Source: Desulfuromonadaceae bacterium
GTDB lineage: Bacteria > Desulfobacterota > Desulfuromonadia > Geobacterales > Pseudopelobacteraceae
Assembly: GCA_028683435.1 (NCBI GenBank)
Contig: JAQUIG010000009.1
Coordinates: 19,643-83,642 of the forward strand
Length of the DNA stretch: 64,000 nt
Direction of reading: 5' to 3'
In this document: positions 39,972 through 50,408 of the stretch, piece by piece
Layout: every line of letters begins with the position of its first letter
How positions within the stretch are numbered: position 1 is the first letter of the stretch
Program-made: the position numbers and the translations under genes
The notes under the pieces: generated by a model
What the model saw: only the letters and a program-made list of their open reading frames with translations
Told to the model about the DNA's origin: nothing
Databases searched by the model: none

Positions 39972-40015
39972 AGGTGCGGAGGCGCAATGTGACTGAATTT
40001 GCTCCCCATTGCTGT

Positions 40016-40044
40016 TGACAATCAAGGCCGGTCCGTGTACATAA
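40016..40044 (+). promoter_or_regulatory. Candidate promoter for the receiver-LysM-ATPase module
   Basis: TTGACA, 17-bp spacer, TACATA (weak -10). Confidence 0.35.
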
Positions 40045-40072: not shown

Positions 40073-41419
40073 ATGCTTAATCTCCTTTTTATATCAGACA
40101 GTCCCCGGGCTGAGTACATAAAGAGTGCGCTGCAGCCTCTTCTCAAGGTCATGATTGATGTCGTGGCCGACTTCGATCATGGCTTGAAGGAGGTCTTTGA
40201 AAAACGTCCTGCGACCGTCTGTATTCAGGATCAGATTGGCGGCGTTACCGGAGAGAGCGTTGCCCGCCACATTCAGATGCTGCTTGGGAACAGTGCGCCG
40301 ACGTTTATTCTCCTTCATAATGGTGACGGCAAGGCGAGGGCTATCAAGGGAGTGTATGAACATCTCATCGATTTGAGTCAGCCGAATGAGATAGTGACAG
40401 ATAATATTAAAACTACGCTCAAATTGTTGCTCGGCAACAAGTGGGAAAGGATTTATATTCCCAACGAACTGACGCCGGTTTCAGTCAGTTTGTTAGTAGC
40501 CGCTCCTGCAGGCTCGCGCGAAGATGCCTTCGGAACCGTTGAATCCGACAGGGCGCAAGCGATCAACGATGATCTGGCGGAACTGCTTCTTATGGAGAAG
40601 GACCGGTCCGAGCGGGATAAAGCTTTCGTCGCACCGCCTTCAACCGCCGGTGATGGTGGGGGATCTGTTTCGATTGATTCGCCTAAGTCGGCAGCTACCA
40701 CACCTGGGAAAAAAGAGACAAGGAGCATTTTAGCACCGGTTCCTGTACCTCCAGCATCACCTGCGGCTAAATTTCGTATCAATCATGACATCCGCCCGGA
40801 TGAAGAGCAGCTTTCTGAAAATCTGCTTCTGGGATTTGAGGAGAACTATCGGTCAGAGTCCCTGCTTTTTCGGCGAACTGTTGTCATCGCAATCATTTGT
40901 GCCTTTTGCGCAGCCGGCGGCTGGTATCTTGTCAAGCAAAAACCGCAGCTGATAAGCTCGCTGAAACAGCGGCTCGACTCACCGGCGGGGCCAAGGCAGG
41001 CGGCGGTACCAACTCCGGTTGCGGCACCGGTACAAAAGCTTGTTCCGCCCTCTCTACCTCAGCCGCTAAAGACTCCACCGCTGCCGGCTTTCATTCCGAA
41101 AGACGGCCATGACAGCTCTTACGCGGTGAAAAAACCCGGTTGGGAGCGTTATGTCGGTGCACGCAACGAATTCCGGGTATTCAGCGTTTCCGGTCGCATA
41201 CAAGCGTTACAGGTGCTTGCTGTTAAAGACGCATCTATTTCAGACTCATGGCTAAGATCCGTTCTGCAGGAATTTGCCGGAAGCAAGGAATACCAGATAA
41301 CCTCCCGAAGTACGAAAGCTGGAGTGCGTGTCGAGAGCGGCAAAATTGGTAATAAGGGTGAAATCATGATCTACAGGAAAAACGGTGAGGTGAAAGCCTT
41401 TGTCGTCTCAATTGAGTAG
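40073..41419 (+). CDS. Hypothetical protein: N-terminal receiver-like domain, one internal TM helix, extracytoplasmic C-terminal domain
   Basis: NLLFISDSPRAEYIKSALQPL...ATVCIQDQIGGVTGESVARHIQ receiver-like; TM TVVIAIICAFCAAGGWYLV; Pro-rich linker. Confidence 0.8.
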   Translation: MLNLLFISDSPRAEYIKSALQPLLKVMIDVVADFDHGLKEVFEKRPATVCIQDQIGGVTGESVARHIQMLLGNSAPTFILLHNGDGKARAIKGVYEHLIDLSQPNEIVTDNIKTTLKLLLGNKWERIYIPNELTPVSVSLLVAAPAGSREDAFGTVESDRAQAINDDLAELLLMEKDRSERDKAFVAPPSTAGDGGGSVSIDSPKSAATTPGKKETRSILAPVPVPPASPAAKFRINHDIRPDEEQLSENLLLGFEENYRSESLLFRRTVVIAIICAFCAAGGWYLVKQKPQLISSLKQRLDSPAGPRQAAVPTPVAAPVQKLVPPSLPQPLKTPPLPAFIPKDGHDSSYAVKKPGWERYVGARNEFRVFSVSGRIQALQVLAVKDASISDSWLRSVLQEFAGSKEYQITSRSTKAGVRVESGKIGNKGEIMIYRKNGEVKAFVVSIE

Positions 41420-41522
41420 TGCCCATCCAGAAACCCGCTGATTAGCGTTTTATCCGGCGAGCGCTTGATCATGCTGTATTTTTAACCGGTTCGTAGCTAT
41501 ATTTAAGCTGTGTGGAGACAAA

Positions 41523-43067
41523 ATGCCCCCCTTTTTAAAGATCCGCGTACCATTTATTGCGGCCGTTTGTCTCGGCACACTGCTTGGTGCCGCTGATGTA
41601 CATGCGGTCATTGATTCGCGTTTCGAACTGGATCCGCTCACAATTTCAGGCTTGAAGAGCACTCCAAAGCCTCCGCAAATAAGAGGGAAACACTCATCAC
41701 ACAGACATGTCGATAAATCTTCATTAACGTCTGCCAAAGGGAGTCTCTACACCGTAAAAGCCGGTGATCACCTCTTCAAAATCTTAATGCGTGATTATGG
41801 CCTGAGCAACAATGAGGCTGAGTCATTTATTGATGAAATCAGGCGCGAAAACAATATCTACGATATTAAACGTCTCAAGGTCGGTCAAAAAATAACTATC
41901 CCCCCGGTTCGGCGACATTCTGATGGAACACTTAACCTGCTTCAGGGGGTACGGATTGATGATGGCAGAACTCCCGGCTCATATGCCGTTCCGAAGCAAT
42001 CATTAAAGCTTGAATCCCCGCTTCCTGCGCTTTCCGACCAGGAAACTGTCGCCATGGCGCATGATATGTGGGACCGGATTATTCCTTCTAAAAAAGAGCT
42101 GCAAAAACCACTGGCACTTCAGACGCCAACCTTTTCATTAACCCTTGATCCAGAGCGCTATCCTACGTTTGCCCGGATGGATGGCGGGCGCATCGTGCTG
42201 GACCAGAATGGCACTATTCCTCCGCTCGTAAAATCATTGATTGAAGAAAAAGTCACCTCGATACGAATTATTACCGGCGGGCTGCCCGGAACAAACCGCT
42301 TTATGGCGTCCCTGCTTGAAGCGGCCGGATTTTACTCGGTTGAGGAAAACTTCAGCATGGAATTCGGCGTAGATCCTAAACTTACGATTCAAACTGATTT
42401 CAAGGTTGAAAAAACAGCAGAAAGCCTTGTCAGTCAGGATGTAACCCTTGTCAACAGCGGTCGCACATCAATTCCCCCTTCCATCGGCGAGTTCCTCAAA
42501 AAAGAGGGCTTTTCGCTCTATGAACCGTTTGCCTCGCTCAAGTCATTTGCGCCTTGTGACTCACGCACGATTTACTCAATATCCTCAAAAAGTCAGCCGG
42601 AAGCAATTGACGCTATTCTCTCCGCATTTTCAGTTTCACCGGTGCTGGATCGTAGTGTGGATGTCTTTGCGTCTGACAATAACGGCATTACCCTTTCAGT
42701 CAAGGCTGAACGTTATTTTGAACGGGGAGGGCAACGCTATGTCGTCACCAGCTTTGATGGTGATCCGATAAATTATACCCTGTTCAGAATTCTGGAGACC
42801 AAGGGGTACAACGTAGTCATTATTGAGGCCCGTGACGATTTTCGCAAGATAGCGGAAAAACTGATTTCCCGGATGAAGATGAAAGGAACTTTCGACCAGC
42901 ATACTCTGCTGCGGGATGTTTCAGCCGGATACTCTTTGAAGATGTCGGGCTTTAAACTGGATGATCCGCTTCTTCCCGGAGGCGGCATCTTCCTGACCGA
43001 TCGTATGATGGATCGCATTGTCAGGGACCTTTTTACCGAAAACGGATTTAACATCAACAGCCGGTGA
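41523..43067 (+). CDS. Secreted LysM-domain protein with uncharacterised C-terminal region
   Basis: Signal peptide; LYTVKAGDHLFKILMRDYGLSNNEAESFIDEIRRENNIYDIKRLKVGQKITIPP LysM-like. Confidence 0.82.
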   Translation: MPPFLKIRVPFIAAVCLGTLLGAADVHAVIDSRFELDPLTISGLKSTPKPPQIRGKHSSHRHVDKSSLTSAKGSLYTVKAGDHLFKILMRDYGLSNNEAESFIDEIRRENNIYDIKRLKVGQKITIPPVRRHSDGTLNLLQGVRIDDGRTPGSYAVPKQSLKLESPLPALSDQETVAMAHDMWDRIIPSKKELQKPLALQTPTFSLTLDPERYPTFARMDGGRIVLDQNGTIPPLVKSLIEEKVTSIRIITGGLPGTNRFMASLLEAAGFYSVEENFSMEFGVDPKLTIQTDFKVEKTAESLVSQDVTLVNSGRTSIPPSIGEFLKKEGFSLYEPFASLKSFAPCDSRTIYSISSKSQPEAIDAILSAFSVSPVLDRSVDVFASDNNGITLSVKAERYFERGGQRYVVTSFDGDPINYTLFRILETKGYNVVIIEARDDFRKIAEKLISRMKMKGTFDQHTLLRDVSAGYSLKMSGFKLDDPLLPGGGIFLTDRMMDRIVRDLFTENGFNINSR

Positions 43068-43142
43068 AACCGTTTTGTTTTGTTGATTATTCTGCTATAA
43101 CGCTCGTACCGTGTCAAAGGACGAGTGTTTTTTTGGGGAAAC

Positions 43143-45089
43143 ATGCTGGATATGAATATTAGAAAAGTTGGCGAACTGCTGGTAGAACAAAAGCTGATTT
43201 CACAGGAGAATCTGCTTGAAGCACTCGATCTTCAAAAAGTTTTTCCGGATCAGCCGGTTGGACAGCTTCTTTGTAAACTCGGCTTTATAAAAGAAAGTGA
43301 TCTCAGTACGTTACTTGACCAGAAAGACAAACGACGCAAACTGACCGACATTCTGATTGCGGCTGGTGTCGTGGATCAGCAGAAGATTTCTCATGCCCGC
43401 GAAGTCGGCAAGCAGAATGCCATATCTCTTGAAAAAGCGCTCCTGAAGTTGAATTATATTGACGAAGAAAGCCTCTCCAAGGCCATTGCGAGCCAGTATG
43501 ATATGCCGTATGTTCAAATCAATACTCAGAATCTTGACCTTTCGCTTTCCGGTTACATAAGTGCTGTCTACGCCCAAAAACAGCGCATCGCTCCCATTTC
43601 TAAAATCGGTAACACGCTGACGCTTGCGATGGCTCAGCCGCTCAACTCGCATGATATTCGTGAGTTGGAAGACAACATCCGGCTCAAGATTATTTCTGCC
43701 ATCGCCACAGAGGCGAATATCTCCAGGTCTATCAAGCGGTTGTACAATGTCGACACGGCGAGCAGTACAACCGCTATGGATGAGGTGAATCTTGATCTGG
43801 TGCCGGACAGTATTGTTGATCTTTTAAGTAATAACTCGGCTGGTGATGAGCCGGATGTTGAGGAAGAAACCAAGAAAGTTACCGAAAAAGATAGTGTTAT
43901 TGTCAAGCTCGTAAACAAGATCATTTATGATGCCTACATGAATAAAGCTTCCGATATCCATATAGAACCGTATCCAGGGAAAAAAGATGTCATCGTTCGC
44001 ACCAGGGTGGACGGTCAATGTTCGATTTATCAGAGAATTCCGTATAAATATAAGTTTGCTCTTCCGTCTCGTATCAAAATTATGGGTGATCTGGATATTG
44101 CCGAACGGAGAAGACCTCAGGACGGGAAAATAGAGTTTAAAAAATTCGGTCCGCTCGATATCGAGCTTCGTGTCGCAACCATGCCGACGGTTGGAGGACT
44201 CGAGGATGTCGTAATTCGTGTTCTCGCAAGCGGTGATCCAATCAGTTTTAACGATCTTGGTCTTACGGAACGGAACCTGCGGATTTTCAAGGAATCTCTG
44301 TCGCGTCCACATGGATTGATTCTGGTTGTCGGCCCGACCGGTTCGGGTAAAACAACAACTCTTCATTCCGGGCTGGCCCAGATAAATCAGACCAATCGCA
44401 AGATTTGGACGGCAGAGGATCCTGTCGAAATCACTCAGCAAGGTCTCCGCCAGGTACAGGTTAATCCGCGTATCGGCTTCACCTTTGCTGCGGCGCTCCG
44501 CTCATTCCTCCGCCTCGACCCTGATGTCATAATGGTTGGAGAAATGCGTGACGAGGAAACGGCCACTACGGCAGTTGAGGCCTCGCTGACCGGGCACCTG
44601 GTGCTTTCAACACTGCATACGAATTCAGCACCGGAAACAGTTACGCGCCTCCTGGAGATGGGTCTTGATTCTTACAGCTTTTCTGATTCTCTCCTCTGCA
44701 TTCTGGGGCAGCGCCTTGCGCGCCGACTCTGCAACGATTGCAAGGAAAGCTTTCATCCGTCAGTGGGTGAATATGAGGAGCTGGTTGATGAATACGGCAG
44801 AGCCGAATTCATCAACACGGGGTTGGGTCTGGCGGATATAGTCATGTTTCGGGCGGTCGGCTGTGAGCAATGTGGGCATACCGGTTATCGCGGTCGTCTC
44901 GGTATCCATGAAGTGCTCGAATGTACGGATGCTATAAAAGGCCTTATCAAGAAGCGTAGTGCAGATACGGATAATGTTCGGGAACGGGCAGCAAGTGATG
45001 GCATGACCACGCTCAAGCAAGATGGCATTCTCAAGGTACTTCGCGGCCTTACTGATATTCATGAAGTACGTAGAGTCTGCATAAAATAA
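43143..45089 (+). CDS. GspE/PilB-family secretion/pilus ATPase with tandem N-terminal MshEN-like domains
   Basis: GPTGSGKTTTLHSGL Walker A; IMVGEMRDEETATTAVEASLTGHLVLSTLHTNSA; CNDC...CEQC tetracysteine; N-terminal KVGELLVEQKLISQENLLEALDLQ / PVGQLLCKLGFIKESDLSTLLDQ. Confidence 0.92.
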   Translation: MLDMNIRKVGELLVEQKLISQENLLEALDLQKVFPDQPVGQLLCKLGFIKESDLSTLLDQKDKRRKLTDILIAAGVVDQQKISHAREVGKQNAISLEKALLKLNYIDEESLSKAIASQYDMPYVQINTQNLDLSLSGYISAVYAQKQRIAPISKIGNTLTLAMAQPLNSHDIRELEDNIRLKIISAIATEANISRSIKRLYNVDTASSTTAMDEVNLDLVPDSIVDLLSNNSAGDEPDVEEETKKVTEKDSVIVKLVNKIIYDAYMNKASDIHIEPYPGKKDVIVRTRVDGQCSIYQRIPYKYKFALPSRIKIMGDLDIAERRRPQDGKIEFKKFGPLDIELRVATMPTVGGLEDVVIRVLASGDPISFNDLGLTERNLRIFKESLSRPHGLILVVGPTGSGKTTTLHSGLAQINQTNRKIWTAEDPVEITQQGLRQVQVNPRIGFTFAAALRSFLRLDPDVIMVGEMRDEETATTAVEASLTGHLVLSTLHTNSAPETVTRLLEMGLDSYSFSDSLLCILGQRLARRLCNDCKESFHPSVGEYEELVDEYGRAEFINTGLGLADIVMFRAVGCEQCGHTGYRGRLGIHEVLECTDAIKGLIKKRSADTDNVRERAASDGMTTLKQDGILKVLRGLTDIHEVRRVCIK

Positions 45090-45165: not shown

Positions 45166-45194
45166 AAGTGAGCTCGCGAGGCTCACTTTTTTTT
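45166..45194 (+). terminator. Rho-independent terminator upstream of rimP
   Basis: AAGTGAGC-tcgcgag-GCTCACTT followed by T8. Confidence 0.75.
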
Positions 45195-45212
45195 GTCCAA
45201 TCGGGTAAGGTC

Positions 45213-47567: not shown

Positions 47568-50408
47568 ATGGGTAAAATTAGTGTGGGTAGTTTGGCAAAA
47601 ACATTGGGCGTAGAGCCCAGGGATGCTATTGCCAGACTCAAGGAAATTGGTGTTGACGCAAAAACGGCTACATCGCAGGTTGATGAGGGTGTCGTTGCGC
47701 GCTTGACAGCCCCCCAGCCAAAAGATACCGGTACCAATGAAGTCAGGGTAGCGTCAAATATCATTCGGCGGCGTGCCAAGGTGGCTCCTGCGGTCGAAGT
47801 TGCTGAAACAGCTGGAGCCGCTGAAGTCTTGCCTGTCCAGCAGCCGGTAACTCCGCCTCCGACGGCGGTGCCTTCTGCCGAGCCGCCTGTTGCAGCCGTC
47901 GTCCGTACCGAGGCGGTGCAAAAAGAGGTCACTGCTGCTGTCGTCACGGTTCCCAAAGAGGTGGCAGAACCGGTGAAAGTTGCAGAACCGGTGAAGGTTG
48001 CAGAACCGGTGAAGGTTGCAGAACCGGTGAAGGTTGCAGAACCGGTGAAGGCCGCAGAACCGGTGAAGGCCGCAGAACCGGTGAAGGCCGCAGAACCGGT
48101 GAAGGCGGGGCCAAACCAGGCCAGAATTCTCGGCATGATGGAAATCCCCGGCGTTACAAATCGTCCGACTCGTGTTGTGACCAAAGACACTCCCGTTACG
48201 CCGCGGAGTGCTCCTCAGCGTACAGGGCTGGATTCGGCTCAACCGAGAAGAGCTGCGCCGGCTGCCGGAGAGCAGAGAAGGCCCGCAACAGGTGCCGATA
48301 CAAGACGCCCTTCGTCTGGTTATGATCAGAAACGCCCTGCGACTGCAACACCTTCCGCTCCCACAACCGAGCTTGATCGTTCACGCATGAAGCAGGTACA
48401 GCTTGCTCCGGCGGCACTTCCGGGCGGTGACAACCGCCGTGGTGGTAAAAAAGAGGGTCCTGGTTATGGAGACGCCGGAAAAGGTGCCAAGAAGGGTGCT
48501 CCACCGGTCAAGAAAAAAGAGCAGCCGCGCAAAAATGAAATTATAGAAAAACGTGAACGTGCGTTTGATCCGGTCTATAAAGGATCAAAGAAGCGGGGCG
48601 CAAGAGAACAGCGGTATACGGACACCAAAAAAACGGAAATTACCGTACCGAAGGCGATCAAACGTATTATCAAGATTTCGGAAAGCATTTCAGTCGGGGA
48701 ACTTGCCAAGCGTCTCGGCATCAAGGCAAACGATCTCATCAAATCGCTGATGAAGATGGGGATGATGGTTAACATCAATCACCAGCTCGATTACGACACC
48801 TCTGTAATTCTGGCATCAGAGTACGATTATGAAGTTGAAAATGTTGCAGTGGATCTTGATGAAATCCTCGAATCCACAATTGATGCGCCTGAAAGCCTCG
48901 TAAAAAGGCCTCCGGTTGTGACAATCATGGGGCATGTTGACCATGGCAAGACCTCTCTGCTTGATGCAATTCGTGAAGCCAACGTTATCGCCGGCGAGGC
49001 CGGAGGAATTACCCAGCATATCGGGGCATATGACGTAGAGTTGAACGGGCGGAAGATTACTTTCCTCGATACTCCGGGACATGAAGCGTTTACCGCGATG
49101 CGTGCTCGTGGCGCAAAGGTTACTGACATCGTTATTCTCGTCGTGGCTGCTGATGACGGTGTTATGCCGCAGACCAAAGAAGCTATCAACCACGCCAAAG
49201 CCGCCGGAGTGCCCATTATTGTCGCTATCAATAAAATCGACAAACCGGGTGCAAAACCGGAAAAGGTCAAGCAGGAGTTGACAGAGCAGGGCATTGTCTC
49301 CTCGGAATGGGGCGGTGACGTTACGATGGTGGAAGTTTCAGCCAAGCAGCGCATTAATCTGGATGGTTTGCTTGAAATGGTTCTTCTGCAGGCTGACCTG
49401 ATGGAGCTGACGGCTAATCCGAACAAGCTGGCCAAAGGGACCATTGTTGAAGGAAAACTCGACAAGGGGCGTGGTCCAATTGCCACTGTACTCGTTCAGG
49501 AAGGAACGGTTAAAACCGGCGACTATTGCGTTGTTGGTGTTCATTCGGGACGTGTCAGGGCGATGCAGAACGATCGCGGCGAAAAAGTTACCGAGGCCGG
49601 TCCTTCCATGCCTGTTGAGCTGGTTGGGTTATCCGGTGTGCCGGATGCGGGTGATATCTTCGTGGCGATGAAAGACGAGAAACAGGCCAAGGAAATAGCC
49701 ACGCTACGCCAGATCAAGCAGCGCGAAGTCGAGTTTGCCAAACATACCAAGCTATCTCTGGACGATCTGTATAAACGGATCCAGAGCGGCGAAGTCAAGG
49801 ATCTCAATGTCGTTGTCAAAGGTGATGTTCAGGGTTCTGTCGAGGCTGTTAGTGAGACACTGCGTAAGCTGTCGACTGATGCGGTCCGTCTGAATGTTAT
49901 TCACTCTGCTGTCGGTGCGGTTACCGAGACGGACGTTAATCTGGCTGCTGCTTCGAACGCCGTCATTATCGGCTTTAATGTCCGCCCTGAAGTCAAGGCA
50001 CAGGGGCATGCCGAACGGGAAGGTGTTGATATCCGCCTCTACAGCATTATCTATGATGCGGTAGAAGATGTTAAAAAAGCGATGGAAGGGCTGCTTGAGC
50101 CGACTTTCAAGGAGAAATTCCTTGGTCGTGTCGAGATCCGGGATGTATTCAGTGTGCCTAAAATCGGCAATGTTGCCGGTTGTTACGTTACCGACGGCAA
50201 AATGGTCCGCAACGCTCAGGTACGCTTGTTACGTGACAATGTGGTCATGTACGAGGGTAAAATGTCATCACTGCGCCGCTTTAAGGATGATGTCAAAGAC
50301 GTTTCAACCGGTTACGAATGCGGTATCGGGCTTGAAAACTACAACGATATCAAAGCCGGCGATATTATCGAAGCGTTTGAAATGGAAAAAATTGCTACAA
50401 AACTTTAG
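47568..50408 (+). CDS. infB: Translation initiation factor IF-2
   Basis: [53 protein letters not shown]. Confidence 0.97.
47961..48104 (+). repeat. In-frame 18-bp tandem repeat in infB (8 units)
   Basis: (GTT/GCC)GCAGAACCGGTGAAG x8 encoding VAEPVK x5 then AAEPVK x3. Confidence 0.95.

Follow-up and report, generated by a model that had tools for sequence, protein, structure and literature searches.

A conserved gene trio around a PilB/GspE-type ATPase in the Geobacter lineage, a candidate accessory module for type IVa pili

What does a PilB/GspE-type ATPase do when it is encoded away from the machine that such an enzyme would drive? The question is raised by three consecutive genes in a 64,000-nucleotide stretch of DNA from a Desulfuromonadaceae bacterium (assembly GCA_028683435.1, contig JAQUIG010000009.1; hereafter the window, which corresponds to C72:19643-83642 in our contig numbering). 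Three open reading frames on the forward strand at 40073-45089, lying between sucA and rimP, encode a predicted membrane-anchored pseudo-receiver (gene 1), an exported LysM protein (gene 2) and the ATPase (gene 3). An original prediction, made from the sequence alone, had described this layout together with a terminator directly after the trio, and all of the frames were recovered where it placed them, as were the terminator stem-loop and its T-tract. At roughly even confidence, we favour the reading that the trio is an operon-like accessory motor or regulatory module of the type IVa pilus, which serves a machine encoded elsewhere in the genome.

The trio is conserved as a unit. Each of the three proteins was searched against 141 genomes of the order, and in most of the genomes that have them the three matches lie side by side; by hand count, genes 2 and 3 are adjacent on one contig in about 73 of the 141. 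When the gene 2 alignment was used to scan named genomes, 65 loci were recovered; all those with a name belong to the Geobacter lineage (Geobacteraceae metagenome-assembled genomes, Pelotalea, Oryzomonas, Trichlorobacter, Geomobilimonas, Geomonas and Geobacter argillaceus), and 61 of the 65 could be tested for the trio. The complete trio is contiguous, on one strand and in constant order in 56 of the 61; the median intergenic gaps are 62 and 67 nt, and genes 1 and 2 overlap stop to start (-4) in several loci. Of the nine remaining loci among the 65, four have a contig end at or close to their start, ahead of gene 2, and the other five are of a Geomonas type. The genes around the trio vary: we see sucA and rimP in the window's genus, sucA and pilM in Trichlorobacter, an ispE-like gene in Oryzomonas, aromatic-amino-acid biosynthesis genes in other families, and others besides. 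Because the unit stays intact while its surroundings change, gene order provides good evidence that the three genes act jointly. This co-conservation was the main expectation of the original prediction, and the neighbourhood comparison strongly bears it out. No description of the trio was found in the open-access literature; subscription journals were outside our coverage.

The machine itself is not encoded beside the trio. Genome searches gave no match inside the window to GspF, a secretin or a prepilin-type N-methylation signal, as had been noted at the outset, and gene 3 is not part of a complete type IV pilus or type II secretion system (T2SS) locus there, since no platform protein (GspF/PilC), secretin or pilin is encoded with it. 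The proposal that the genes form a divergent assembly system is likewise unsupported, as the trio is not accompanied by a pilin, a platform or a secretin. The original prediction also pointed to a missing prepilin peptidase, but that absence is uninformative because no match to this family (PF01478) was found anywhere in the assembly (3.17 Mb, 97 contigs, 99.9% complete) despite three GspF and three secretin genes; an assembly gap is the most likely cause. Seven GspE-type ATPases are encoded in the same assembly, namely the window protein, the canonical PilB on contig C20 and those at C72:11185 and on C34, C86, C19 and C80, with a weak eighth on C2. The platform proteins are on C19, C20 and C34, and the secretins are on C19 and C34, with PilQ on C72. 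With seven ATPases and three GspF proteins, several of the ATPases, including that of the window, have no platform of their own, and the gene 3 product must either share a platform or build no filament. The pilMNOPQ genes are on the same contig as the trio, at C72:50-5556, about 14 kb before the window starts, and prepilin-type sequences are confined to C56, C34 and C70. Two ATPases were also noted in passing: a second GspE-type gene without a platform gene lies about 5 kb after pilQ (L058:10948-12750, that is C72:10948-12750), and the protein on C86 (L061:7855-10278) has 807 aa and a receiver-like start and lies in a large gene cluster for response regulators and kinases.

A direct neighbourhood link to pilus genes is seen in Trichlorobacter, where gene 3 is followed at once by pilM, pilN, pilO and pilP (L137, from Trichlorobacter thiogenes, L145, L147 and others). 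In a near-complete genome of this genus (G125, locus L075), pilQ follows pilP. The Trichlorobacter PilM and PilQ proteins score above their NCBIfam cut-offs, and pilN, pilO and pilP were assigned from their position and from similarity to the operon in the window's own genome.

Gene 3 encodes a complete ATPase, as predicted, with Pfam scores of 391 bits for T2SSE (cut-off 24.9) and 52 bits for MshEN. Its closest relatives in the PDB are PilB proteins, which rank above GspE, and it falls below the equivalog cut-offs for both PilB (TIGR02538, 545.9 against 675.65 bits) and GspE (TIGR02533, 481.8 against 630.25 bits). Like the PilB/MshE extension ATPases, it combines MshEN and T2SSE domains with the Walker, His-box and zinc motifs, but it is not encoded next to PilT and PilC, as is the canonical PilB on C20, to which it is 38-40% identical. 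Across 62 trio ATPases, Walker A, Walker B and the His box are near-invariant and the tetracysteine zinc motif (CxxC...CxxC) is invariant; the catalytic and zinc motifs are intact and the motor is apparently active.

The original label of a cyclic di-GMP (c-di-GMP)-type ATPase holds at the level of the family model (NF053729, 61.5 bits against a cut-off of 38) but not for the residues of the second binding motif. MshEN domains that bind c-di-GMP contain two 24-residue motifs, RLGxx(LVI)(LVI)xxG(LVI)(LVI)xxxxLxxxLxxQ, joined by a 5-residue spacer (PMC5013675). The strict motif is absent from the window ATPase, which has a spacer of 6, Lys for Arg in motif I, and Pro for Arg and Lys for Gln in motif II. 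The motif II Arg is replaced by Pro, Thr, Ala, Gln or Ser in all 62 orthologues, and 60 of them carry another residue in place of the Gln; a perfect motif I is kept by five orthologues, including the Trichlorobacter protein of L137. Because the second binding motif is degraded, control of gene 3 by c-di-GMP seems doubtful, and binding should not be presumed.

The gene 1 protein has no match in Pfam or NCBIfam. An AlphaFold2 model was built on 52 sequences, with a mean predicted local distance difference test score (pLDDT) of 77.8 and values of about 95 for both end domains. The N-terminal domain is predicted to have a receiver fold, and Foldseek matched it to many receivers, the best being that of FrzS (2gkg, E 4e-6, target-normalised template modelling (TM) score 0.74). 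Receivers are phosphorylated on an Asp at the end of strand beta-3. In gene 1 this position, as placed by the model, holds no phosphorylatable Asp but Gln52 (codon 40226-40228), which is invariant in all 52 sequences. Because this Gln sits where the phosphorylated Asp would be, the modelled gene 1 product is a pseudo-receiver anchored in the membrane, in keeping with the degenerate receiver first proposed. The Arg pair preceding the predicted membrane helix suggests an N-terminus on the inside, and the C-terminal domain is probably periplasmic; D347, G356, W357, R359, Q380, Y434 and V444 are invariant within it across the 52 sequences.

Two known proteins offer partial parallels for gene 1. 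GspL spans the membrane once, has a cytoplasmic domain of actin-like fold and a small periplasmic domain, and is encoded near a GspE-type ATPase. Genes 1 and 3 may resemble the GspL/GspE docking pair in this single-span topology and in lying near such an ATPase gene, but the cytoplasmic part of gene 1 is predicted to be a receiver and not an actin-like fold. FrzS of Myxococcus xanthus has an atypical receiver that lacks the phosphorylated Asp (PMC1974792), and it promotes pilus extension by aiding the polar localisation of PilB (PMC11580455). The gene 1 receiver shares the fold and the missing Asp but differs in that a membrane helix and a periplasmic domain are attached to it, with an identity of only 14%, and we use the FrzS parallel only as an analogy.

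Some other matches and relatives of gene 1 were noted. A PDB profile match to 6ncl P14 (profile positions 138-322) was discounted, as it covers a variable low-complexity linker, and weak, scattered Pfam matches for genes 1 and 2 were treated as chance. The window's genome contains a gene 1 paralogue that is apparently split over the ends of contigs C68 and C9 (L067:9410-10396 and L068:2-280), and a gene 2 paralogue on C16 (L057:9405-10337). These are not adjacent; elsewhere, such pairs adjoin without an ATPase (L077, L078). Proteins of 1000-1450 aa with gene 1-like sequence at both ends are encoded next to a ParA-like gene at L095:8590-12942 and L092:10057-13059, and the one in L095 contains a receiver that Pfam recognises.

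Gene 2 was proposed to encode a secreted LysM protein with an unrecognised C-terminus. Its N-terminus reads as signal peptide-like, with VHA at residues 26-28, and the LysM domain of the window protein passes its cut-off. LysM is not general to the family, however, being detected in 32 of 53 orthologues, while the C-terminal 330 residues contain all 17 positions that are invariant in the 53 sequences. On this pattern of conservation, the core of the family is the C-terminal domain and not LysM. No Pfam or NCBIfam family matched this domain, and the AlphaFold2 modelling that had been suggested for both proteins, which gave a receiver fold for gene 1, predicted the fold of the gene 2 domain with good confidence, but this fold had no PDB match below E 1e-3 in Foldseek. 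An internal duplication, considered from repeated secondary structure, was rejected (half-versus-half profile comparison, probability 6%, P 0.006). Two other candidate relationships were set aside as weak: a PD-(D/E)XK nuclease reading of D292-F-K294 (Foldseek E about 0.02-0.08, poor superposition) and a PrgH-like ring-building domain (best E 6e-3, TM 0.12-0.25).

TsaP is a LysM protein that stabilises the type IVa pilus secretin and has been proposed to link the pilus machine to peptidoglycan (PMC10653833). It is exported, as gene 2 is predicted to be, and gives a precedent for a wall-binding pilus part. TsaP has LysM and a FlgT-like C-terminal domain; in the Pfam and NCBIfam searches, gene 2 gave LysM and no FlgT match. 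Gene 2 differs in its C-terminal domain, which matches no family of either database, in that LysM is dispensable among its orthologues, and in being encoded with an ATPase.

How might these parts work together? On the reading we favour, the gene 2 protein would be exported and would bind peptidoglycan where LysM is present, tying the complex to the wall. The gene 1 protein would span the inner membrane and link the periplasm, through its C-terminal domain, to the cytoplasmic pseudo-receiver, which could not be phosphorylated at the usual site and may instead offer a docking surface through which the gene 3 ATPase is recruited or gated. Gene 3 would then be an alternative PilB-like extension motor, or a motor regulator, at the PilM/PilC base, and the output might be pilus extension that is additional or conditional, or signalling linked to the pilus. 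The conservation, order, contiguity and domain make-up of the trio, the loss of the phosphorylation site, the intact motifs and the pilMNOP(Q) adjacency in one genus are direct observations; the interactions, any use of PilC or PilM and the output of the module we infer. Support for the favoured reading comes from the contiguity, the pilMNOP(Q) adjacency, the shortage of GspF, the intact motifs, the promoter-like element and terminator that frame the trio, and the FrzS and TsaP precedents. The idea first proposed, of an accessory or regulatory arm that uses a machine encoded elsewhere, fits the Trichlorobacter adjacency and the GspF shortage, while its suggested path from cell-wall sensing to motor control is hypothetical; the original interpretation has thus gained partial support.

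Several observations weigh against this reading. The five Geomonas-type loci keep genes 1 and 2 without the ATPase, and some genomes carry the ATPase apart from genes 1 and 2 (G111). LysM is missing from many gene 2 orthologues, those of Trichlorobacter included. The match to FrzS is one of fold, at low identity and among many receivers, and is no evidence of homology. Close relatives of the ATPase are found in STAS/HATPase signalling operons without pilus genes. The adjacency to pilM is limited to Trichlorobacter, and several same-genus genomes without the trio retain pilM. As pilM is nearly universal (123 of the 141 genomes), these same-genus genomes included, the trio is dispensable for the pilus machine and is an optional addition to it; the near universality of pilM also makes a phyletic-profile test uninformative.

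The main competitor is a signalling switch without filament assembly, in which the ATPase would be a nucleotide-gated hexameric regulator under the gene 1 and gene 2 proteins, acting for instance on exopolysaccharide or gene expression. We consider this possible but distinctly the less probable account. It is a live alternative because of the company that related ATPases keep: GspE/MshEN ATPases with 53-60% identity to that of the window are encoded with STAS (L088, L089, L090, L091), several of them also with HATPase_c_2 and response-regulator genes, and another related group includes a GAF domain. This second subfamily (L082-L085, about 770-790 aa; GAF, MshEN and T2SSE in L082) is common in the order, its members stand alone, and the window's genome showed no close member. 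An ATPase tree places the trio proteins with those associated with GAF and STAS and away from the other ATPases of the window's genome; the support value is just 0.70, however, and the trio set does not form a clean group of its own, so we claim no monophyly. The excess of ATPases over platforms would also suit a signalling role, as would the many trio-containing genomes with no pil gene next to the trio and the finding that M. xanthus PilB regulates exopolysaccharide (PMC5544727; PMC11656802). Against it stand the full set of motor and zinc motifs kept across the 62 proteins and the position of the trio beside pilMNOPQ in Trichlorobacter.

Within the pilus reading, a more specific and rather unlikely idea is that the membrane-anchored pseudo-receiver takes the place of the PilM/GspL dock, or adds to it, and in this way directs a dedicated second extension ATPase to wall-marked sites. 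If true, this would be an unrecognised form of coupling between motor and envelope, and would give Geobacterales a separately controlled mode of pilus extension.

Pili and filaments of the Geobacterales are central to metal respiration and to growth on electrodes. The surplus of GspE-type ATPases over platforms in this genome raises the question of how a second motor comes into use, and the trio offers a concrete candidate answer that can be tested.

We give little credence to a dedicated motor for type II secretion or a pseudopilus machine in place of the type IVa pilus. The GspE-type architecture with its N-terminal domain would suit such a motor, and one genome (L071) has gspA/gspB-like genes, recognised by eye, some 2 kb upstream of its trio; but the T2SS-like cluster on C19 already includes a GspE of its own, adjacent to a secretin and GspF, the GspE equivalog score of gene 3 is below the cut-off, and PilB relatives rank above GspE in the PDB search. 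Equally improbable, in our view, is a cell-wall module with a borrowed ATPase, acting in envelope growth or positioning, for which the Trichlorobacter pilus link would be incidental. Distant gene 2 homologues in other Desulfobacterota are single LysM genes, and in four of the loci inspected (L178, L186, L188, L189) they lie directly beside a PBP1A family gene, with overlapping ends in some; because of this adjacency, a wall-related role for the gene 2 family is supported at the level of gene neighbourhood. The retention of genes 1 and 2 alone in Geomonas points the same way. These distant homologues have no genes 1 and 3 nearby, however, which sets the trio apart as an arrangement of its own, one that has a conserved motor ATPase among its members. 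That the three are mere neighbours in a slowly changing region is very unlikely: in most members of the window's genus the trio has sucA and rimP on either side, but it is also intact in several unrelated settings, both inside the window's family and outside it.

Table 1. Positions in the window of the three genes, their domains and motifs, and the flanking transcription signals.
Feature	Coordinates	Strand	Description
Promoter-like element	40015-40043	+	TTGACA-17 nt-TACATA, TG before second hexamer; 30 nt 5' of gene 1
Gene 1	40073-41419	+	Predicted pseudo-receiver/transmembrane/periplasmic protein, 448 aa
Pseudo-receiver domain	40073-40453	+	Residues 1-127; confident AlphaFold2 fold, Foldseek
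Predicted membrane helix	40862-40939	+	Residues 264-289; AlphaFold2 helix and hydrophobicity
Conserved C-terminal alpha/beta domain, gene 1	41105-41416	+	Residues 345-448; pLDDT about 96
Gene 2	41523-43067	+	Predicted exported LysM protein, 514 aa
LysM domain	41748-41903	+	Residues 76-127; PF01476, 24.4 bits (cut-off 20.9)
Conserved C-terminal domain, gene 2	42069-43064	+	Residues 183-514; 17 invariant columns, pLDDT mostly 85-95
Gene 3	43152-45089	+	PilB/GspE-type ATPase, 645 aa from ATG 43152; T2SSE
MshEN-type N-terminal tandem motif	43164-43325	+	Residues 6-59, numbered from codon 43149; NF053729
Walker A	44331-44360	+	GPTGSGKTTT; Walker B, His box and four zinc Cys further downstream
Intrinsic terminator, end of operon	45166-45195	+	9-pair stem, loop of 5, T-tract; stem-loop 45166-45188

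The open frame of gene 3 extends upstream to a GTG at 43125, which would give 654 aa; the ATG start is more likely, because the orthologues begin at that position. Upstream of gene 1, the TTGACAAT and TGTA columns of the promoter-like element are invariant in ten genomes. Because this core is kept while the neighbouring intergenic DNA diverges, the trio is probably transcribed from a promoter of its own and not from sucA alone. A generic promoter scan performed no better than on shuffled sequences and missed the element because its second hexamer lacks the terminal T. Further along the window, infB (47568-50408) encodes an N-terminal run of near-identical AEPVK repeats.

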